Positions 30,891 to 41,159 of a DNA stretch of 41,720 nt are shown in pieces. The stretch spans positions 1 to 41,720 of the forward strand of contig CAIQNN010000012.1 of the NCBI GenBank assembly GCA_903873185.1. Direction: 5' to 3'. Every line of letters starts with the position of its first letter. Position 1 is the first letter of the stretch. A program made the translations under genes and the position numbers. Below the pieces are notes generated by a model. That model saw only the letters and a program-made list of their open reading frames with translations, made no database searches and was not told the origin of the DNA. The DNA comes from an uncultured Actinomycetes bacterium (GTDB lineage: Bacteria; Actinomycetota; Actinomycetes; Nanopelagicales; Nanopelagicaceae).

Positions 30891-31409
30891 ATGAGCGCTC
30901 TCACTACATTGGCACTGAAAAAATCAGAAAAACCGCGAATAATGGGCGATATGAAGCGCGCGCTATTGATTTCGGCGGGACTTATCGGCGGAACCGGTGC
31001 GGTCTTGGCGATCACCCCGCCACAATTTGGAACTTCACCAACTACCGGGCTGGCAAGTACACTGACGAAAACGGCGACGCCATCTACAAGTACAAAAGCA
31101 ACCTCAAAGCCAGGTACAACAACTGCTGGGGTCTCTGGGACTTTTAGTGGTGCAACGGCTAACACTCAGTTTGGACCAGTTCAAGTTCAGATTGTCGTTC
31201 GGAACGGAAAGATCATTAGTGCCAGCGCATTGCAAGCACCAAGCTCTGGTGGCCGAACCCAACAAATAAATGCACAAGCAATTCCATATTTAATTCAAGA
31301 GACTCTCAAAGCGCAGTCAGCCAATATCCAAGGCGTCGGCGGCGCAAGTTACACCTCCAACGGTTGGGCGCAATCTTTGCAATCTGCAATTACTAAGGCG
31401 GGAATCTAG
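30891..31409 (+). CDS. Secreted FMN-binding domain protein
   Basis: A 172-residue protein. A hydrophobic signal or anchor (MKRALLISAGLIGGTGAVLA) begins at the in-frame ATG at 30951; the longer start at 30891 adds 20 residues. A Thr/Ser/Lys-rich linker (about 48-80) leads to an FMN_bind domain (about 85-172) with GPVQVQIVVRNGKI and GVGGASYTSNGW. The latter matches the site where ApbE attaches FMN to a Ser/Thr in NqrC/RnfG-like proteins. It probably carries covalent flavin outside the membrane in electron transfer. No ApbE or redox partner gene is in the window. Confidence 0.82.
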   Translation: MSALTTLALKKSEKPRIMGDMKRALLISAGLIGGTGAVLAITPPQFGTSPTTGLASTLTKTATPSTSTKATSKPGTTTAGVSGTFSGATANTQFGPVQVQIVVRNGKIISASALQAPSSGGRTQQINAQAIPYLIQETLKAQSANIQGVGGASYTSNGWAQSLQSAITKAGI

Positions 31410-32320: not shown

Positions 32321-33349
32321 CTAAATTCGTTTCGCCCCGATATAAGGCTCGTAACCAAATCGAGAGCCAAAAGATTCAACCCGAACTCTGGCCCCAGAAT
32401 GGGGGGCATCAACCATCATGCCATTGCCCAGATAAATGCCAACGTGGGTAATTGGGCGACCAAAGAAGACCATGTCACCGGGCTTTAATTGGTTACGTGG
32501 AATAAATTTTCCATACCCGTATTGATAAGCCGCAGAATGTGGCAATGAAACTCCCACCGAACCAAAGGCGCGCATCACCAAACCAGAACAATCCCAATAG
32601 ATCATGCCGGCAGCACCGAAGACATAGCGATCGCCGATCTGCTTTAGCGCAAACTTTAAGGCGCTTGCACCTCTTCCGGAGCCAATTTTATATTTAGCAG
32701 CCTGGGCTATGGAATATTTTTGAGCTTGGCTGTCATTTGCCGCTGCTAGCTTTGCCAGTCTCGCGCGATCGGCCTTGGTTAATTTAGAGAGCAGTTGTTG
32801 GGCAGCTTTTAATTTTGCATTAGCCGCAGTTTGTTGGGCTACAAAACGAGCTCGTGCCGCCTTTACCAACGCCAGCTTGTCATTAACTGTCAGGGAGGTA
32901 GCGACCAACCGCTGTTTTGCAACTTGGTACTTCTTTAGCTGCAATGCCTTCTTCTGCGTGATCATCTCTAACGTTCCAGCTTGCGCCAAATAAAGCGTGG
33001 GGTCCGAGGAGAAGAGAAGTTGCATTCCTTGGCCTAGGCCACCGTTCTTGTACTGCTCGGCGGCAATTGCGCCAAGAGATTTTTGGAAGGAAGAGACGCT
33101 GCTCTGCTGAACCGAGGCTTGCTGTTGGACGCTGGCTAATTTCCGAGACAAATTATTTAAATCAACTTGGGCAGCCTGGGCGCTTTCGGCCAGGCTCGTT
33201 GCTTGCTGTTGTAGCCGCAGAACCTGGGCTTGGACCGAGGCTAGATTGGTGGCTGCATTCGCACTTGGAAGGGCCACGGGTAGCAATAGACCTCCCGCGA
33301 GCACAGCAACCCCAAAATTAATTCTGGGTCGCCGCTGCCAAAAGAACAT
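32321..33349 (-). CDS. Secreted NlpC/P60 peptidoglycan endopeptidase with coiled-coil domain (RipA-like)
   Basis: A 342-residue exported cell-wall hydrolase that cuts peptide stems of peptidoglycan. Residues 1-32 form a signal peptide (cleavage near ANAAT). Residues 35-205 form a long Gln/Ala-rich coiled coil, the autoinhibitory arrangement of RipA-type enzymes. The NlpC/P60 domain (about 225-342) has the catalytic Cys254 (WDCSGL), His302 (THVGIYLG) and third polar residue His317 (DAPHSG). It is likely to act in cell separation. It is divergent from the decaprenyl-phosphoryl-arabinose operon, grouping two envelope functions. Confidence 0.93.
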   Translation of the reverse strand: MFFWQRRPRINFGVAVLAGGLLLPVALPSANAATNLASVQAQVLRLQQQATSLAESAQAAQVDLNNLSRKLASVQQQASVQQSSVSSFQKSLGAIAAEQYKNGGLGQGMQLLFSSDPTLYLAQAGTLEMITQKKALQLKKYQVAKQRLVATSLTVNDKLALVKAARARFVAQQTAANAKLKAAQQLLSKLTKADRARLAKLAAANDSQAQKYSIAQAAKYKIGSGRGASALKFALKQIGDRYVFGAAGMIYWDCSGLVMRAFGSVGVSLPHSAAYQYGYGKFIPRNQLKPGDMVFFGRPITHVGIYLGNGMMVDAPHSGARVRVESFGSRFGYEPYIGAKRI

Positions 33350-33430: not shown

Positions 33431-33448
33431 TATACTGAGAATCTAATG
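33431..33448 (+). promoter_or_regulatory. -10 box of the decaprenyl-phosphoryl-arabinose operon
   Basis: TATACT (33431-33436) lies nine bases before the ATG at 33446, so the leader would be only a few bases long. The -35 region is weak and no ribosome binding site is visible. Confidence 0.5.
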
Positions 33449-34324
33449 AAATCCTGGGTAAAAGCCGCTCGCCTGCACCAGTGGCTCAAAAATCTGCTGC
33501 TTTTCATGCCTTTGCTGGCGGCCCATCAAGAACGCGATCTCAACCGAATATGGCATTTGATAGCCGGCTTTTTCGCCTTCTCGTTGCTGGCCTCAAGCGT
33601 CTATCTGATTAATGACTTGATCGATATCGAATCCGATCGAAAGCATCCCCGAAAAAAGTATCGCCCCTTCGCTTCCGGTGAATTAAGTACTAACTCTGGC
33701 TGGCGAATGGCACCAGCGCTGATGCTCCTGGGCCTAGGTCTTGGTAGCGCCATTGGCCGAAACTTCTTTTTCTGGCTGGTGGTCTACTTTTCGATCACTC
33801 TGGCCTATTCATTATTCCTAAAGCGATTGGTAATAGTTGACGGAATTACATTGGCAACTTTGTATTTTCTGCGCATCGTTGCAGGTGCCAGCGCCTCTAA
33901 AACCTCGCTCTCCTTTTACTTAGCCACCTTCTCGATCTTCCTCTTTCTTTCACTGGCATTCGTCAAGCGCTACGCCGAACTTCGCCTTGCTTCGAAAATG
34001 GATTCCGATTCAGATTTTGGCCGGGGCTACCTGGTGGAAGATGCTCCGATTGTGCAAGTGCTCGGAGTTGCTTCCGGATACGCCGCGGTGGTAATCCTGG
34101 CGCTCTATCTAAATACCGATTACGTACACATGCTTTATGCCCATCCGCAATTTGTGTGGGGCTTGGTTCCAGTTCTACTTTATTGGATTAGTTGGGTTTG
34201 GCTTAAGGCCCATCGTGGTGAAATGAATGATGACCCGTTGCTCTTCGCCGTTCGAAATCGCGAAAGCCAAGTCGCCGGTCTCATCTTTTTGGCAATCTTA
34301 TTTGCCAGCAGCGTCGGTCGGTAA
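33446..34324 (+). CDS. ubiA: Decaprenyl-phosphate phosphoribosyltransferase (UbiA family)
   Basis: A 292-residue membrane prenyltransferase that joins phosphoribosyl pyrophosphate to decaprenyl phosphate, the first step to decaprenyl-phosphoryl-arabinose. The motif NDLIDIESDRKHP (Asn56, Asp57, Asp60, Asp64) is the first UbiA Asp-rich motif and matches mycobacterial Rv3806c-like enzymes, as does the LHQWLKNLLLF start. About eight or nine helices are present. DprE1 and DprE2 genes follow directly, so the assignment is firm by context. The start is close to a -10 box. Confidence 0.92.
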   Translation: MKSWVKAARLHQWLKNLLLFMPLLAAHQERDLNRIWHLIAGFFAFSLLASSVYLINDLIDIESDRKHPRKKYRPFASGELSTNSGWRMAPALMLLGLGLGSAIGRNFFFWLVVYFSITLAYSLFLKRLVIVDGITLATLYFLRIVAGASASKTSLSFYLATFSIFLFLSLAFVKRYAELRLASKMDSDSDFGRGYLVEDAPIVQVLGVASGYAAVVILALYLNTDYVHMLYAHPQFVWGLVPVLLYWISWVWLKAHRGEMNDDPLLFAVRNRESQVAGLIFLAILFASSVGR

Positions 34325-34326
34325 TC

Positions 34327-35607
34327 GTGAAAGTTCACTCATGGGGGCTACTCAGCAACGAAGAACATCAAATCGAGTTAACCGATTCGAATTTTAAACA
34401 CTCAAACGCCATTGGGATTCCGATGGGGCTTGGGAGAAGTTATGGCGATGCCGCGCTAAATCCTGGTGGCGCAATCTGGCTAACCAGCGCACTAAATCAC
34501 TTCATCGCTTTCGATGAAGAGCGCGGCGAATTCGAATGTGAAGCCGGCGTATCGCTTCGCGAAATTCAAGCGTTAATAATTCCCCGGGGCTGGAACTTGC
34601 CAGTAACGCCAGGCACCCAATTTGTGACAGTTGGCGGAGCTATTGCTAACGACATTCACGGCAAGAGTCATCACACTTATGGAACTTTTGGCGATCAAGT
34701 TATCTCGCTGACGCTTCGCCGAACTGATGGCAGCGAAATGCTCTGCTCTCCGGAACAAAACTCGGAACTCTTCGCTGCCACTATCGGTGGCATCGGGTTA
34801 ACTGGCTTAATTACCAAAGCGCGGTTCGCCTTGGTTCGTTGCACCTCCCCCTGGATTGAGATGGAGAGTTCGCCATTTAATAACCTTTCCGAATTTTTTG
34901 AACTATCGAAAAGTTCAGCCATTGGCTGGGAAAGTTCAGTCGCTTGGATCGATTGCGTTGGCACCAAAGCCGGGCGTGGCATATTTATGCGTGGCAATCC
35001 AGCGGCCAAAGCTGAGAGCAAGAAAGTAAAGGAACGGCAGCTTGGCCTTCCTTTCACTCCCCCAATTTCGCTGGTAAACAAGGCAACGCTTCGAGCTTTA
35101 AATACTGGCTACTTCCATCTCAATAAAGCTAAAGCTGGTCACTCAACGGTTCACTACCAGTCTTACTTCTATCCACTCGATGCTATTTCAAATTGGAATC
35201 GCATCTACGGCCCCAAAGGTTTCTATCAATATCAAAGTGTGATTCCGCATGACCGAGCTGAAAGTGCCACCCAAGAAATGATGGCGACCATTGCCTCATC
35301 TGGTGAAGGTTCCTTCCTGGCTGTACTTAAAGTCTTTGGCGAGAAAACACCAAGAGGGTTATTAAGTTTTCCTATGCCTGGGGTTACCTTGGCCCTTGAT
35401 TTTCCTAACCGTGGCGCGAGCACGCTGGAACTTTTTGCCAAGCTAGATGAGATCGTGATCCGCTCTGGCGGGCGGCTTTATTTGGCGAAGGACGCCCGAA
35501 TGTCTCGCCCAATGTTTGAGACCACCTATCCAAATGTTTCCGAATTTAAGAAGTACCGCGATCCAGGAATCAGTTCTGCAATGTCGCGTCGATTGTTGGG
35601 GGCTTAA
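34327..35607 (+). CDS. dprE1: Decaprenylphosphoryl-beta-D-ribose oxidase DprE1
   Basis: A 426-residue FAD enzyme that oxidises decaprenyl-phosphoryl-ribose at C2. FAD-binding features are GLGRSYGDAALNPGG, TPGTQFVTVGGAIANDIHGK and GDQVISLTLRR. His111 corresponds to mycobacterial His132 and Lys388 (YLAKDAR) to Lys418. The segment GVTLALDFP aligns with the mycobacterial GWNICVDFP, so Ala356 replaces Cys387, the residue attacked by benzothiazinones. It is slightly shorter than the mycobacterial 461 residues. GTG start two bases after the upstream stop; dprE2 follows after three bases. Confidence 0.93.
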   Translation: MKVHSWGLLSNEEHQIELTDSNFKHSNAIGIPMGLGRSYGDAALNPGGAIWLTSALNHFIAFDEERGEFECEAGVSLREIQALIIPRGWNLPVTPGTQFVTVGGAIANDIHGKSHHTYGTFGDQVISLTLRRTDGSEMLCSPEQNSELFAATIGGIGLTGLITKARFALVRCTSPWIEMESSPFNNLSEFFELSKSSAIGWESSVAWIDCVGTKAGRGIFMRGNPAAKAESKKVKERQLGLPFTPPISLVNKATLRALNTGYFHLNKAKAGHSTVHYQSYFYPLDAISNWNRIYGPKGFYQYQSVIPHDRAESATQEMMATIASSGEGSFLAVLKVFGEKTPRGLLSFPMPGVTLALDFPNRGASTLELFAKLDEIVIRSGGRLYLAKDARMSRPMFETTYPNVSEFKKYRDPGISSAMSRRLLGA

Positions 35608-35610
35608 GCG

Positions 35611-36354
35611 ATGAAGAATATTGCCATCATTGGCGCAACTTCCGGAATAGCACAAGCTTGTGCCCGCATTTGGGCAGCCGAAGCTGACATTCGATTGATT
35701 CTTATTGGCAGAAGCCAAGAGCGTTTGACTCAAGTATCAAACGATTTGAAAGTCCGATCGCCCAAAGCGGTGATTGAAAGTTATGAAGTAAATTTCACTG
35801 ATCCTCGTGCGGTGGCAGCCTGCGTAACTTATGTCACGGGCACTTACGGTTTAGATATTGCGCTTTTCGCGGCAGGCGTTATGCCAACTCAAGAACTGCT
35901 CTCAACTTCACCTGCGTTGGCTGCCGAAACGATTGCCTTGAATTCCATCTCCCCCACCCTATTTGCCGAGCCAATTTTGCAATTCTTTACAAATCAAAAT
36001 CATGGCACCATGGCTTTGATCGGTTCCGTCGCAGGAGATCGCGGTCGGAAAGCCAATTATTTGTATGGTGCTAGCAAAGCATTTATCGCCACCTACGCCG
36101 CTGGCTTGCAACATCGCTTTGCAAAGACTCCAATTAGGATCGTTCTAATTAAGCCTGGACCTACGGCTACGGCAATGACTGCTGAGCTTCAAGCCGATGG
36201 AATCCGAATGGCTAAACCAGAGAAAGTGGCGCAGGACATAATTTTGGGCATCTCAAAAGGCGATGCCGTCATTTACACCCCGCGAATCTGGGGGCTCATT
36301 ATGGCGATTGTCCGAAAGGTGCCAGCACCAATATTTAATAGGCTAAATTTCTAG
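35611..36354 (+). CDS. dprE2: Decaprenylphosphoryl-D-2-keto-erythropentose reductase DprE2
   Basis: A 247-residue SDR that reduces the 2-keto intermediate to decaprenyl-phosphoryl-arabinose, the only known arabinose donor for cell-wall arabinan. The N-terminal cofactor motif is IIGATSGIAQA. Catalytic Ser is in LIGSVAGDRG and Tyr/Lys in YLYGASKAFI, with GPTATAMTA typical of the family. It is directly linked to dprE1 and precedes a phosphodiester glycosidase gene. Confidence 0.92.
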   Translation: MKNIAIIGATSGIAQACARIWAAEADIRLILIGRSQERLTQVSNDLKVRSPKAVIESYEVNFTDPRAVAACVTYVTGTYGLDIALFAAGVMPTQELLSTSPALAAETIALNSISPTLFAEPILQFFTNQNHGTMALIGSVAGDRGRKANYLYGASKAFIATYAAGLQHRFAKTPIRIVLIKPGPTATAMTAELQADGIRMAKPEKVAQDIILGISKGDAVIYTPRIWGLIMAIVRKVPAPIFNRLNF

Positions 36355-36356
36355 TA

Positions 36357-37466
36357 GTGAAACTCCAAGAAAAGTGGCCAGTTAAAAAGTGGTGGCAGAA
36401 CACGCTGCTAGTCCTCGTGCTACTTCTGCTACCCGTAACTTGGTCGATTGGTACGGCGATGCTTCCCGCAAATACCGATCCAACCGCCGCTCGATTGGCC
36501 GAGTGGGCCAGAGATCATTGGCTCGGAAGCGTCGTTACGGCACTTGAACAATTGCAATATGAAATCAACCCACCAAAAGTGGGTGGCACAATTACTCCTA
36601 ACTCTTTCGGCGCCACCCCCAGCGCAACACCAACAGGAGAGATCCCAATTCACGAAGCGCTCACTCCGATCGTGTCACCAAGCGCTGCGAATGAAGGAAC
36701 CTTCTCCGAAGCTCTCAACGTCGGCGGCCTACCCATAATTCAGGTGGCTTACCTGCGCCCGGATTCGATCCATACCTCTTACGTTTCCAGCGTGGTTTGG
36801 ATGTCGGGGGCACATGTTCGTTTTGAGCAACGACCCGGGACTTTAGACCCTGGCCAATTATCGAAGTGGAGTACTGAGCCAGTTTTATCAAGAAGCACTC
36901 CGGATTTAATTGGAGCCTTTAATGGTGGCTTCAAAATCAGAAGTTCTCGCGGTGGCTATTACGACAACGGCCACACCCAAGGGACTCTAAGGACTGGTGC
37001 GGCCTCAATCGTTGTTTACAAAGATGGCACCAGCAATATTGGTAAATGGGGCAGCGATGTAGTTATGACCCCTGATGTGCTTTCAGTGCGACAGAATCTC
37101 GATTTATTAGTCGACAACGATCAACTGGCAAAAAATATCAACACAGCAGTCGAGAGCAATTGGGGGGCGACGTTGAAAGCCAAGACTTACGTCTGGCGTT
37201 CCGGAATTGGAATTACTGCTGCCGGTGATTTTGTCTACGTAATGGGTGATGCGCTCAATGCTTACTCGCTCGCAAACCTATTGCACAAGGCCGGCGCAAT
37301 CCGCGCTATGCAACTGGATATCAATCCTCAGTGGGTTTCATTTATGTGGTTCCAAAAGAGCAGTACGGGCGGGGTGGTTCCGATAAAAGCAGCCCGATTC
37401 GATCGTCCTGCTGATCGCTATTTTCACCCATCAAGTCGAGATTTCTTCGCGATCTATTCGAAGTAA
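36357..37466 (+). CDS. Membrane-anchored phosphodiester glycosidase (NAGPA-like) family protein
   Basis: A 369-residue protein. One N-terminal membrane segment (NTLLVLVLLLLPVTWSIG) is followed by an extracytoplasmic linker and a phosphodiester-glycosidase domain (about 150-369). Typical segments are GAFNGGFKI, VVYKDGTSNIG and IRAMQLDINPQW. Characterised relatives remove alpha-linked sugars from phosphodiesters (the lysosomal uncovering enzyme and bacterial exopolysaccharide proteins). The GTG start is two bases after dprE2, in the arabinose-donor operon. A role in trimming or recycling sugar-phosphate at the outer surface is inferred from that location. Confidence 0.85.
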   Translation: MKLQEKWPVKKWWQNTLLVLVLLLLPVTWSIGTAMLPANTDPTAARLAEWARDHWLGSVVTALEQLQYEINPPKVGGTITPNSFGATPSATPTGEIPIHEALTPIVSPSAANEGTFSEALNVGGLPIIQVAYLRPDSIHTSYVSSVVWMSGAHVRFEQRPGTLDPGQLSKWSTEPVLSRSTPDLIGAFNGGFKIRSSRGGYYDNGHTQGTLRTGAASIVVYKDGTSNIGKWGSDVVMTPDVLSVRQNLDLLVDNDQLAKNINTAVESNWGATLKAKTYVWRSGIGITAAGDFVYVMGDALNAYSLANLLHKAGAIRAMQLDINPQWVSFMWFQKSSTGGVVPIKAARFDRPADRYFHPSSRDFFAIYSK

Positions 37467-37477
37467 CTAATTCTCAA

Positions 37478-39274
37478 TTAAAGTTTTGTTGCGGCAACTT
37501 TCGTCGCCTTCAGAGTAAATCCTGCAGGGCACTTCGGTGCAGCTCCGGTTACGGCCTTAATGTCTGCGCCTTTTTTGCAGGTAATAGTGAACTTCTTAAC
37601 CAGAAGTTTCGAGCTTAAAGCAACAACATCAATCTTGGCCTTGACCATCTGTTGAAAGTTTGCAGCTTGTGTAGAGAACTGTGAAATAACGCTGATATCA
37701 GTAGTAATCACACCAGTAAGAGTTGGCATCTTTGGCGCCACAGTCTTTAACTTTGCCAATTCTAAAGTTGCACTTGGGTACTTATTCAGCGCATCTAATA
37801 AGGTGCTGTAACTCTGATCCAAAATGCTTTTAGCGCCATTTAGCAATTGCTCACCGGCGTAGCTCAGATTTTGGGTATCGGTTTGCAATGAAGTTGAAGG
37901 ATTGTTGTTACTCAGAAGGCTGGCGGGAGTTGAGCTTGCAATCTTGGTGGGAGTTAAGTTGGTATCCCACACCTTAAGCGGAGCAGCACACTGGACTACT
38001 TTCGAGCACATCATTGGTGTTCCATGAAAGATGCCGAAAGCCTCAGCAGCAGCGTATTTTGCAGTAGCAATTCCAACTACGCGACCTTTACGATCGAATG
38101 CTGGCCCACCAGAGTTGCCAGGGTTGATATGTGCAGTGGTCGTGCCAGTTGCAGTCGGTATGGAAATACTTGAGACGATTCCTTCGGTGAGAACTCCCGG
38201 GAATCCCAATGGGCTTCCGATAATTCCTTCCCACCAGCCTTGCTGCGGTGCGGAACCTTGCCAATCCAGCGCTGGGATGGCTGCAGTCGTGACAATTCCT
38301 GCCAAGTCATTTACATCGTCGGTAATTACTAAAGTTCCTTCAACTGAAGACTGATCCGGAAGGACGATCTCCACTTGGCGAGATGCAACGCAATCAACAA
38401 CTACGTGTGCATTTGTTATTACATAAGATTTATCGTGTTGTGCCTGCATCAAGGCAGTTAAGTTAACTCGTGCGGACCAACCGCTTCCTTGATTGGTACC
38501 ACATTTAATTGTGACCACGCCTTGGGATTCCGCAGAGGCCAGAGCTACCAAATCATCGGGTGGATTTGCAGGCGATGGAATAGCTACTGAATTCTGAGCC
38601 GGCGCAGTAGGAACCGCCATGGCTACAAATGGTGTTTGTGAACCTGTGGTTGCTGAAACTGCAACCGGAGAGGTAACGCCCCACATTTTTGAATTTGGAA
38701 CAAGTTTGGTGCGAAGGTTAGAAGCGCTGCCATCAGTGCTCACGGAGGTAAAGGCTTGAACCCCGATGGTATTTCCGAATGGGATGCAATCCTTCTTTAT
38801 CGAAAAGCCAATCCAGTTCACACTCTTCGTTAAGTCAGTAAAGGATTGAACTTCGCATTTGCTGCTAAACATTTCGATGCCGGAAGTTCGGTCAACGAAT
38901 ACTGCAGATTTAATATAATTTCCGATTAGAGGTGTACTTGGATCGGTTTGGATGGCGTAGTCAGATGCACCATCACCATTCACATCAATATTTACTCCGG
39001 AAGTTGCATGTGCAGCGGCGCTGAATTGATCGCCTTTAATGGGGTTCAGATATGTTAGGTAGAAATAAAATTTGGATTGATCAGTGTCGTTTACGCCAAA
39101 GCTAACTTGCTGCAAGTTGTAGTCTGCTGAAATTCCATTGACGCTGGCACTCTCAACCGGGCTGGATTGATAATTAAGCCAGGTCGCCGCAACGGGCGAG
39201 AGGCTCATGATCGGCAGTAGCGAGCCAGCTACGAGCGGTAGCAGCGCGCGATATGCCATCCGGGGAAGATGCAT
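37478..39274 (-). CDS. Secreted trypsin-like serine protease with C-terminal Cys-x15-Cys tag (paralogue A)
   Basis: A 598-residue exported protein. A signal peptide (about 1-30, ending PVAAT) leads to a novel N-terminal domain (about 33-200) with a Ca-binding-like NIDVNGDGASDY loop and the pair Cys140/Cys163. The protease domain (about 240-430) has His290 (TNAHVVVDC), Asp323 (VNDLAGI) and Ser388 (NPGNSGGP). A helical segment follows (about 450-550), then the tag with Cys566 and Cys582 (APKCPAGF). A second, related gene lies directly upstream on the same strand. The triad is complete, so activity is likely; the target is unknown. A later start at 39259 is possible. Confidence 0.87.
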   Translation of the reverse strand: MHLPRMAYRALLPLVAGSLLPIMSLSPVAATWLNYQSSPVESASVNGISADYNLQQVSFGVNDTDQSKFYFYLTYLNPIKGDQFSAAAHATSGVNIDVNGDGASDYAIQTDPSTPLIGNYIKSAVFVDRTSGIEMFSSKCEVQSFTDLTKSVNWIGFSIKKDCIPFGNTIGVQAFTSVSTDGSASNLRTKLVPNSKMWGVTSPVAVSATTGSQTPFVAMAVPTAPAQNSVAIPSPANPPDDLVALASAESQGVVTIKCGTNQGSGWSARVNLTALMQAQHDKSYVITNAHVVVDCVASRQVEIVLPDQSSVEGTLVITDDVNDLAGIVTTAAIPALDWQGSAPQQGWWEGIIGSPLGFPGVLTEGIVSSISIPTATGTTTAHINPGNSGGPAFDRKGRVVGIATAKYAAAEAFGIFHGTPMMCSKVVQCAAPLKVWDTNLTPTKIASSTPASLLSNNNPSTSLQTDTQNLSYAGEQLLNGAKSILDQSYSTLLDALNKYPSATLELAKLKTVAPKMPTLTGVITTDISVISQFSTQAANFQQMVKAKIDVVALSSKLLVKKFTITCKKGADIKAVTGAAPKCPAGFTLKATKVAATKL

Positions 39275-39365: not shown

Positions 39366-41096
39366 CTACGCTTTGAGCTTGTACCCAATCGGACATTTCG
39401 GGGCTGTGCCAACCACTTTCTTAGTTATAGCTCCCTTCACGCAGGTAATTGTCTTGGTTTTAGCCGCAGCTTTGGCCTTTGCAATTGTTAGCGCCACGGC
39501 ATTGATCTTGGCGTGGACCAGGGTTTCATAGGCGGCGATATTGGTGGCAAAGGCTGAAATTGCCGTTACATCTGCCGCGGCATTTGAAGTGGTCGCAGGC
39601 ACCTTGGGTGCTAAAGCCTTGAAAGCCTGGAATTGAGCGGCGGCCGATGGGAAATCGATTTTAGCCTCATTTAAATCAGCCATGGTGTCAGCCAGTACGA
39701 CTTTGGCACCTTCTAAGACAATCGAACCCGCAGCGCGAAGGGCATCAGATTGAGATTGTAGATCTGTGGTCGCGCTCGAAGTTGGATTGGTATTTGCACT
39801 CCAGATCAGCGAAGTTGAACCGCACGCAATAACTTTTCCGCAAAGCAAGGGGGCGCCGTGGATAATTCCAAAACCTTCCGCATCCAAATATTTTGCGGTA
39901 GCAATTCCAATAACTCGACCCATTCGTTCGAAGGCAGGTCCTCCTGAATTACCGGGATTGATGTGGGCCGTTGTTGTAGCAAGGAACCCAGTCGGAGTAA
40001 CGCTAGAAATAATGCCTTCCGTTAAAACTCCAGGGAAGCCGAGCGGGCTGCCTTCAACACCAGCCCACCAACCTTCGGCAGGCGCCACACCTTGCCAGCT
40101 CAGTTGGGGCAACTCAGTTTTAATTACAACCCCAGCTACATCATTAATCTCATCCCAAGCCCACAGGCGTCCCGTTACTTTAGTTTGGTTAGGCAGCGTT
40201 ACCGTTACGTTCTGAGTTGGAATGCAATCCTTAATTACATGGTGATTAGTAATTATGAAACTCTTATAGCCAGCTTTGGTCATGGCAGAAGTCATTTGAA
40301 CCTTTGCCGCCCAACCACTGCCCAAACTATTGGCGCAACTAATGGTCACAACTGATCGGGTTTCAGATGCAGCCAAAGCCACCAAATCATCGGGCGGATT
40401 TGCTGGGTTCGCAATTGATGTTTCAGCAGTCTCTAACACTTTTGGTAAATCAGTTGAGGATGCGGCTCCGGCAAATGCATCAGCAGGTGCGGGAGTAGCA
40501 CCAGCGATGCTGATGGTCCAATATTTATCTGGAACTAAATCAAATTCAAATTTGCCCTTGGGGTCGTGGAATGAGAAGCCTTGCACCCCAAAAGTTGTTT
40601 GAAAAGGCAAACAGGACCTAAGTATTGAGAAACCAATCCAATCTGCTTGGACCGCCATATCGGTAAAAGTTTGAACTGCACACTTTGAACTGATCAAGTC
40701 GTAGCCTGGTGTCTTATCAACAAAAATTCCGGAATGAATGTAGTTACCGTCATACGGGATTAGCGGATCGCTCTGCAACGAATATTCCGGAGTGCCATCG
40801 TTGTTGAGGTCAATATTTATTCCGGCGAATGAACCCTTGCCATCGTTAAAAAGTTTGGCGCTAACTGGCTTGACGAAATTTAAATAGAAGTAATAACGAC
40901 TGAGATCCGAATCGTTAATTCCGAAGTGGACTTGCTGAACGTCATAATTGATGTCAATGCTCTGTTTTATTCCGGAGTGAGCGGCGCTGGTCTGGTAATT
41001 AGACCAAGCAGCGTTTGCCGGGGAAAGTTGCGTTTGAAGTAAAGCGCTCGTTAGCAAGCAAAAGGTGACTACCACCACATTCCGCTTGACTCTCAT
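39366..41096 (-). CDS. Secreted trypsin-like serine protease with C-terminal Cys-x15-Cys tag (paralogue B)
   Basis: A 576-residue paralogue of the next protease gene, with the same order: signal peptide (about 1-29, ending ANAAW), N-terminal domain with NIDLNNDGTPEY, ANPPDDLVALA linker, protease domain with His286 (TNHHVIKDC), Asp319 (INDVAGV) and Ser384 (NPGNSGGP), helical segment, and the tag with Cys552 and Cys568 (APKCPIGYKLKA). The ATG at 41096 is chosen because it directly precedes the basic start of the signal peptide; the frame is open to 41120. CAAAAT lies six bases upstream, so a leaderless start is possible. The pair looks like an old tandem duplication, as they match throughout but differ in many positions. 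Confidence 0.87.
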   Translation of the reverse strand: MRVKRNVVVVTFCLLTSALLQTQLSPANAAWSNYQTSAAHSGIKQSIDINYDVQQVHFGINDSDLSRYYFYLNFVKPVSAKLFNDGKGSFAGINIDLNNDGTPEYSLQSDPLIPYDGNYIHSGIFVDKTPGYDLISSKCAVQTFTDMAVQADWIGFSILRSCLPFQTTFGVQGFSFHDPKGKFEFDLVPDKYWTISIAGATPAPADAFAGAASSTDLPKVLETAETSIANPANPPDDLVALAASETRSVVTISCANSLGSGWAAKVQMTSAMTKAGYKSFIITNHHVIKDCIPTQNVTVTLPNQTKVTGRLWAWDEINDVAGVVIKTELPQLSWQGVAPAEGWWAGVEGSPLGFPGVLTEGIISSVTPTGFLATTTAHINPGNSGGPAFERMGRVIGIATAKYLDAEGFGIIHGAPLLCGKVIACGSTSLIWSANTNPTSSATTDLQSQSDALRAAGSIVLEGAKVVLADTMADLNEAKIDFPSAAAQFQAFKALAPKVPATTSNAAADVTAISAFATNIAAYETLVHAKINAVALTIAKAKAAAKTKTITCVKGAITKKVVGTAPKCPIGYKLKA

Positions 41097-41159
41097 GTGA
41101 TGATTTTGGCAGATTCGCAAACCAATCGCTACATAACAATATTCTAGCGAACGGGTCTA

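Follow-up and report, generated by a model that had tools for sequence, protein, structure and literature searches.

A NAGPA-fold membrane protein linked to polyprenyl-phosphoryl-arabinose genes in Nanopelagicales: a candidate user of the arabinose lipid

The window analyzed here is a stretch of 41,720 nucleotides from an uncultured actinomycete of the order Nanopelagicales (contig CAIQNN010000012.1 of assembly GCA_903873185.1, a draft genome of 1.63 Mb in 65 contigs that is 97.7% complete). It contains four consecutive plus-strand genes (33446-37466) for a UbiA-family protein, a DprE1-like oxidase, a DprE2-like short-chain dehydrogenase/reductase (SDR), and a membrane protein resembling NAGPA. 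In the established pathway, UbiA, then a 5'-phosphatase, and then DprE1 and DprE2 lead to polyprenyl-phosphoryl-arabinofuranose (DPA). We found that the link between the NAGPA-like gene and the DPA genes is real. We tentatively propose that the NAGPA-like protein uses DPA and passes its arabinofuranose to a surface glycan.

Results

The fourth gene of the operon encodes a NAGPA-fold protein

The four genes are separated by gaps of 2, 3, and 2 bases, in agreement with the spacing of 2-3 bases in the original prediction, which was made from the sequence alone. The fourth gene (36357..37466, +) encodes a membrane protein of 369 amino acids (aa) with the DUF2233 fold. Against PF09992, it scored 25.9 bits (cut-off 25, reached) and 27.9 bits in the genome search; four relatives scored 32.2-35.2 bits. 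A phmmer search up to E 1 retrieved no solved relatives of the window protein, and a sequence profile matched NAGPA among the solved chains only at E 0.32, ranked under unrelated repeat designs. Structure comparison decided the fold assignment. An AlphaFold2 model was calculated from 66 aligned sequences (the window protein and 65 homologues) and had a pLDDT of 92.5 and a pTM of 0.90. It predicts a helix at residues 9-35, which would serve as an anchor, short helices at 43-53 and 57-70, and a beta-rich domain at about 117-369. Foldseek matched the model to the DUF2233 protein 3ohg (2.8e-11), and VIA gave Z 20.2 to 3ohg (244 aligned residues, root-mean-square deviation 3.5) and Z 15.4 to guinea-pig NAGPA (6pku), at a sequence identity of 12-16% to both. 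These comparisons of the predicted model confirm the NAGPA fold, and the original description of the product as a membrane-anchored NAGPA-like protein stands. The beta-rich domain would lie outside the membrane, because Lys residues precede the N-terminal helix.

Across the 66 sequences, 26 columns are invariant, including N189, R281, and D321; also among them are W50 and R52, located by the membrane helix, and G76. The membrane-side part of the protein is family-specific. In a weak profile alignment (E 0.32), N189, R281, and D321 stand opposite the Asn, Arg, and Asp of guinea-pig NAGPA that we take to be catalytic. Since these residues are kept in 66/66 sequences and are aligned with NAGPA, the protein is, judging by its residues, probably an active enzyme. 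D321 is followed by Ile-Asn in 66/66 sequences; the printed NAGPA alignment stops at the Asp, and the NAGPA signature is presumably Asp-Gly-Gly. A search of plasmid and phage collections at E 1e-5 gave no hits for the NAGPA-like protein. Five separate NAGPA-like matches, some of them partial, were found in each of the genomes G319 and G441; multiple paralogues are usual for transferases.

The NAGPA-like gene is linked to the genes for DPA synthesis

In the order, 201 genomes were searched twice, with a DprE1 threshold of 200 bits (the next match scored 32 bits). The NAGPA-like protein was found in 15 genomes and DprE1 in 17, and all 15 are inside the 17 (Fisher 8.6e-21, relatedness ignored). 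In 14 of the 15 genomes, the NAGPA-like gene comes immediately after the SDR gene, and the same contig bears DprE1. In the 15th, G058, it follows an SDR fragment at a contig end, and the DprE1 and UbiA genes open another contig. Conservation next to dprE2, by which the original prediction proposed to judge the association, thus holds in 15/15 genomes of the order. A second copy, distant from the DPA genes, is present in G123 and G058.

The class was surveyed in 296 genomes, using thresholds of more than 100 bits for the NAGPA-like protein and at least 150 bits for DprE1. The NAGPA-like protein was counted in 26 genomes, 25 with matches above 100 bits and G205 with a contig-end fragment beside its DPA genes; 16 of the 42 matching genomes, all of family f18, were left uncounted, as the match covers only the first 50-70 residues. 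DprE1 was present in 102 genomes, among them 25 of the 26 with the NAGPA-like protein, and the co-occurrence persists where the two genes sit on different contigs.

A scan of named genomes yielded at least 558 relatives, of which 80 were kept; the nearest named relatives among the matches listed were actinobacterium metagenome-assembled genomes (MAGs). UbiA or DprE1 was encoded at most 4 kb away in 38 of the 80 loci and in 23 of the 41 loci flanked by 4 kb or more on each side, and 24 loci without UbiA or DprE1 were too short for judgement. Four arrangements were seen: the NAGPA-like gene before ubiA (23 loci), after the SDR gene (8), convergent (4), and divergent (3). They are spread over Streptomycetaceae, Streptosporangiaceae, Acidimicrobiaceae, MAGs named Chloroflexi, and others, and the cultured carriers include Kitasatospora mediocidica and Streptacidiphilus. 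On an 81-row tree, with short contigs scored as not adjacent, the adjacency label needs 16 changes, and starred branches force 12 of these. The neighbours have therefore repeatedly joined or parted.

Some of these loci have features of their own. Among the MAGs named Chloroflexi, L099, L113, and L135 carry NAGPA-like genes, L099 with DPA genes nearby; mislabelling or transfer is possible, because the tree places them with a Micrococcales MAG. A ferric-reductase-like cluster accompanies the NAGPA-like gene in L102, L105, L112, L119, L123, L125, L128, L137, and L147, mostly Acidimicrobiaceae; ApbE, DoxX/Rieske, and two-component genes are present in part of them, and the scan took one protein from each cluster. 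In L191-L197 (family f18), residues corresponding to about 15-70, the helix and the stretch behind it, terminate frames that have a long N-terminus and no NAGPA domain.

The three upstream genes resemble the DPA synthesis genes

The first gene of the operon (33446..34324, +) encodes a UbiA-family polyprenyl-phosphate phosphoribosyltransferase-like protein of 292 aa. It matched PF01040 (1e-24) and reached the cut-off of NF006088/PRK08238 (389.8 bits, cut-off 351) over positions 193-480 of the 482-position profile, of which it lacks the N-terminal ~190. With phmmer, it matched the decaprenyl-phosphate phosphoribosyltransferase 8j8j (1.3e-25), and it stayed below the equivalog cut-offs of the PRK12324 models (120.9-132.9 bits versus 207-474). 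The DprE1-like flavin adenine dinucleotide oxidase (426 aa; 34327..35607, +) scored 342.6 bits with NF053785, under the equivalog cut-off of 500 bits, and matched solved DprE1 chains at 1.6e-67 (phmmer). The DprE2-like SDR (247 aa; 35611..36354, +) scored 228.5 bits with NF005489/PRK07102 (cut-off 267, not reached) and 131.7 bits with the DprE2 model NF053786 (equivalog cut-off 250, not reached). Because the equivalog cut-offs were missed, the names dprE1 and dprE2 of the original prediction are replaced here by DprE1-like and DprE2-like, which denote full-length similarity and not proven orthology.

In a pairwise alignment, the DprE1-like protein has Ala where the solved DprE1 chain has the Cys of the NICVDFP motif, which we take to be the target of benzothiazinones. 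Therefore, covalent binding of such DprE1 inhibitors to the window protein is probably not to be expected.

Two types of DPA enzymes were distinguished. They best fit PRK08238/PRK07102 in the window, G108, and G129, and PRK12324/NF053786 in G023, G038, and G002; the enzymes of G134 group with the window type by 50-59% identity. Between genomes of the two types, the NAGPA-like protein diverges less than the DPA enzymes. A swap of the DPA genes with the fourth gene kept was considered and is not supported, as approximately unbiased (AU) tests fail to reject common descent (p 0.43 with the order's DprE1 rows constrained to a single clade, p 0.31 with the window-type NAGPA rows so constrained).

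Emb, AftA, AftD, and GT87 were not found in the window genome

The window genome contained no match to the Emb C-terminus (PF14896), AftA (PF12250), AftD (PF11847), or GT87 (PF09594). It was also unmatched by the G050 protein and alignment A3, two probes that derive from the surroundings of DprE1 in other genomes and are similar to transferases of the glycosyltransferase C (GT-C) fold. AftD was absent from all 18 tested genomes of the order and present in 6/6 tested outside it, and AftA was found in none of the 24 genomes tested. Emb was detected in 24 of the 296 class genomes, all of one family, and none of these 24 has a NAGPA-like protein. With Emb, AftA, AftD, and GT87 missing, the NAGPA-like protein may be the missing DPA user. 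The original prediction had counted a lack of any arabinosyltransferase against the association; for these four families the lack is what we observed, and it does not make the link accidental.

Within the order, G002 and G050 are the sole DprE1 genomes without a NAGPA-like protein, and each has a multi-membrane protein (575 aa and 531 aa, respectively) beside ubiA. The 575-aa protein matched a putative glycosyltransferase model at 4.4e-10, under the cut-off. A relationship of the 531-aa protein to AftB was considered and dropped, with no Pfam, NCBIfam, or solved-chain support. The other 15 loci of the order have no such multi-membrane protein as the next gene, with three contigs ending at one side of the operon. 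Scanned multi-membrane neighbours of the NAGPA-bearing loci were transporters, CtaA, GDT1 (weak), and GT2, and one 187-aa protein was unmatched; no GT-C family match was found among those scanned, which were not all such frames.

For the class, 40 loci were fetched, 6 were dropped because no DprE1 frame was picked, and the scan covered each of the 39 multi-membrane candidates near DprE1. GT-C-like proteins were encoded near DprE1 at 7 of 15 loci lacking the NAGPA-like gene and at 1 of 19 loci bearing it (Fisher 0.011), a contrast defined post hoc, with a crude gene caller and contigs of unequal length, all of which reduce its weight. The seven include AftD in L158, L160, and L166 and DUF2079, presumably kin of GT-C, in L151; for the proteins of L154, L157, and L159, the sole grounds for the GT-C-like label are size, helices, and resemblance to each other and to a protein in L158, which reduces the weight further. 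The NAGPA-bearing locus, L189, was counted by similarity to proteins in L160 and L166. Two unmatched 11-12-helix proteins of 413 and 440 aa beside DprE1 in L178, also NAGPA-bearing, were left out of the count.

Discussion

Proposed role of the NAGPA-like protein

In the proposed pathway, UbiA, assigned by similarity, would transfer ribose-5-phosphate onto polyprenyl phosphate, and the 5'-phosphate would be removed by a phosphatase encoded elsewhere; no 5'-phosphatase gene lies within the four-gene operon. The DprE1/DprE2-like pair would convert the lipid-linked ribose into arabinose, and the lipid-linked sugar would be delivered to the outside, where the anchored NAGPA-fold domain would sit. 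There, the NAGPA-like protein may attack DPA at its glycosyl-phosphodiester bond, which is of the type cleaved by the family. Polyprenyl phosphate would be freed for reuse, and the arabinofuranose would be passed to a hydroxyl of a surface glycan instead of to water, so that the protein would replace the GT-C arabinosyltransferase of mycobacteria. We infer DPA as the substrate, and transfer rather than hydrolysis. A pure hydrolase would create a futile cycle from phosphoribosyl pyrophosphate (PRPP) to free arabinose, unless an unseen transferase exists, and transfer to a surface glycan would make the operon complete. This argues for transfer, and we favour a DPA user of this kind over hydrolysis and recycling, while regarding it as no better than a tentative assignment. 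With slightly more reserve still, the NAGPA-like proteins can be regarded as a possible new class of glycosyltransferases that have the NAGPA fold and a single anchor, use DPA as the donor outside the membrane, and replace the GT-C enzymes with their many membrane spans in a part of the Actinomycetota.

Several observations weigh against this proposal. All characterized NAGPA-fold enzymes known to us are hydrolases, and the linkage of DPA is beta, unlike that of alpha-GlcNAc, on which NAGPA acts. The model searches did not extend to AftB and GT136, which leaves room for AftB or unnamed kinds of GT-C, and two PMT_2 GT-C matches are present in the window genome, either of them a possible DPA user. 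The 531-aa protein of G050 has no Pfam, NCBIfam, or solved-chain match. The alternation between GT-C and NAGPA-like proteins is not strict, because G441 and G258 hold both kinds: in G441, AftD and a GT-C-like protein encoded near DprE1 accompany the NAGPA-like genes, and G258, alone among the 7 NAGPA-bearing class genomes tested, also matched probe A3. In G112 of the order, the NAGPA-like protein is accompanied by a GT87 match right at the cut-off. NAGPA-like genes are present in two MAGs labelled Mycobacterium, G271 carries a NAGPA-like protein without DprE1, and at 18 of the 41 loci with full flanks neither UbiA nor DprE1 is encoded inside 4 kb.

In an alternative explanation, an unrecognized GT-C enzyme (PMT_2, AftB-like, or GT136-like) adds the arabinose, and the role of the NAGPA-like protein is to trim or remodel the completed arabinose-bearing glycan or another sugar-phosphate polymer such as teichoic acid. 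Both PMT_2 matches would fit, as would the unnamed multi-membrane GT-C-like proteins that adjoin DprE1 elsewhere. The 18 flanked relatives lacking the DPA genes, and the location of some near ferric-reductase/ApbE genes, allow for another substrate. However, at least one PMT_2 match was found in 24 of 25 genomes with or without DprE1, with weaker second matches in the DprE1-less G006, G007, and G088. Because they are present irrespective of DprE1, the PMT_2 matches do not track DPA; the stronger one in the window genome adjoins rsmI- and metG-like frames (judged by eye), and mycobacterial pmt presumably has the same neighbours. Moreover, the NAGPA-like protein never occurs without DprE1 among the 201 genomes searched in the order, whereas a general trimmer of glycans would have no need of DprE1. 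We consider trimming unlikely, although it deserves serious attention. A somewhat less likely explanation is a DPA hydrolase that acts outside on polyprenyl-phosphoryl-arabinose (or -ribose) present in excess or in the wrong place and frees polyprenyl phosphate by cleavage, in recycling or editing, with another protein performing the transfer. It fits the genomic linkage and the coexistence of NAGPA-like and GT-C genes in G441 and G258. The activity of the family is hydrolysis releasing phosphodiester-linked sugars, according to PMC12419801, and blocked carrier recycling harms Corynebacterineae, according to PMC3937683. Yet because the window genome matched none of Emb, AftA, AftD, and GT87, hydrolysis alone would amount to the futile cycle described above, and none of the 24 Emb genomes has the protein, although recycling would be equally useful there.

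That an ordinary secreted hydrolase merely happens to follow the DprE2-like gene is very improbable. The 18 of 41 relatives away from UbiA and DprE1 would agree with such hitch-hiking, and since common descent in the order was not rejected (AU p 0.43 and 0.31), the linkage there may be one inherited event. Chance does not account for the four arrangements across Streptomycetaceae, Streptosporangiaceae, Acidimicrobiaceae, and MAGs named Chloroflexi, for the 16 adjacency changes on the tree with 12 forced, or for the co-occurrence with DprE1 even on different contigs. This linkage upholds the original association of the fourth gene with the DPA pathway; the recycling or editing function that was added to it is one option among several, and the arabinan-like polymer is conjectural.

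If transfer by the NAGPA-like protein is true, it would provide a second fold for sugar transfer from polyprenyl phosphate, since all outside transferases known to us that use polyprenyl-phosphate sugars have the GT-C fold, and it would alter the way in which genome sequences are interpreted with regard to surface-glycan pathways. It would also explain the fate of the arabinose lipid in actinobacteria that have DprE1 and lack Emb. DprE1 is a tuberculosis drug target, and which other bacteria need DPA, and via which enzyme, bears on the selectivity of inhibitors. The cultured carriers Kitasatospora mediocidica and Streptacidiphilus make the proposal testable. A full-text search, which covered few subscription journals, found no literature joining the NAGPA family or the uncovering enzyme with DprE1, arabinofuranose, or decaprenylphosphoryl, and full-text search also found none on Streptacidiphilus with arabinose as a cell wall sugar.

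Neighbouring genes

A divergent gene for an NlpC/P60 peptidoglycan hydrolase (32321..33349, -; PF00877, 3e-23) precedes ubiA. The same family adjoins ubiA in 5 other loci of the order, G108, G102, G038, G074, and G058 (a cluster of 6 with the window), and it may be regarded as a candidate member of the unit only. In the family scan of the window proteins, no GT-C was found in the operon or adjoining it. A flippase was likewise not found in the operon or adjoining it, the rest of the genome not having been searched for one. A small protein with a flavin mononucleotide-binding domain (PF04205, 4.4e-6) is encoded 2 kb upstream of the operon (30891-31409, +) and may relate to the ApbE/ferric-reductase context.

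On the other side, the operon is followed by trypsin-like proteins. Secreted proteins, trypsin-like and others, share a C-terminal motif, Cys-x-Lys-Gly ... Pro-x-Cys-Pro-x-Gly-Tyr/Phe. It was seen in 4 different proteins among the loci examined: three in the window (37478-39274, -; 39366-41120, -; and a 156-aa frame) and a fourth in L069 (6328-8100, -). From its sequence, the motif looks like a surface-sorting or anchoring tail.

Comparison with known systems

A three-component system for pentofuranose addition was described in 2024 for Citrobacter youngae O1/O2, in which a MATE flippase and a GT-C transferase (GT136) act with a synthase (PMC11127046). The window operon resembles it in that a polyprenyl-phosphate pentofuranose donor would be used outside, and DprE1/E2 homologues are present in the candidate arabinofuranose-adding systems of that study. 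It differs in holding neither a MATE flippase nor a GT-C transferase, and the terms NAGPA, phosphodiester, and glycosidase do not occur in the main text of that paper. With the mycobacterial DPA pathway (Rv3806c UbiA, DprE1, and DprE2, followed by Emb and AftA-D), the operon shares the UbiA, DprE1, and DprE2 steps by similarity. In contrast to mycobacteria, there is no Emb, AftA, AftD, or GT87 match here, the fourth gene encodes a NAGPA fold, and the DprE1 and DprE2 cut-offs are missed. The fourth protein is like the uncovering enzyme NAGPA and bacterial DUF2233 proteins (PF09992; 3ohg and 6pku) in its fold and in Asn189, Arg281, and Asp321, but it has an N-terminal anchor with a conserved stretch behind it, and Asp-Ile-Asn where NAGPA would have Asp-Gly-Gly. 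The operon as described is a new variant of the DPA pathway.

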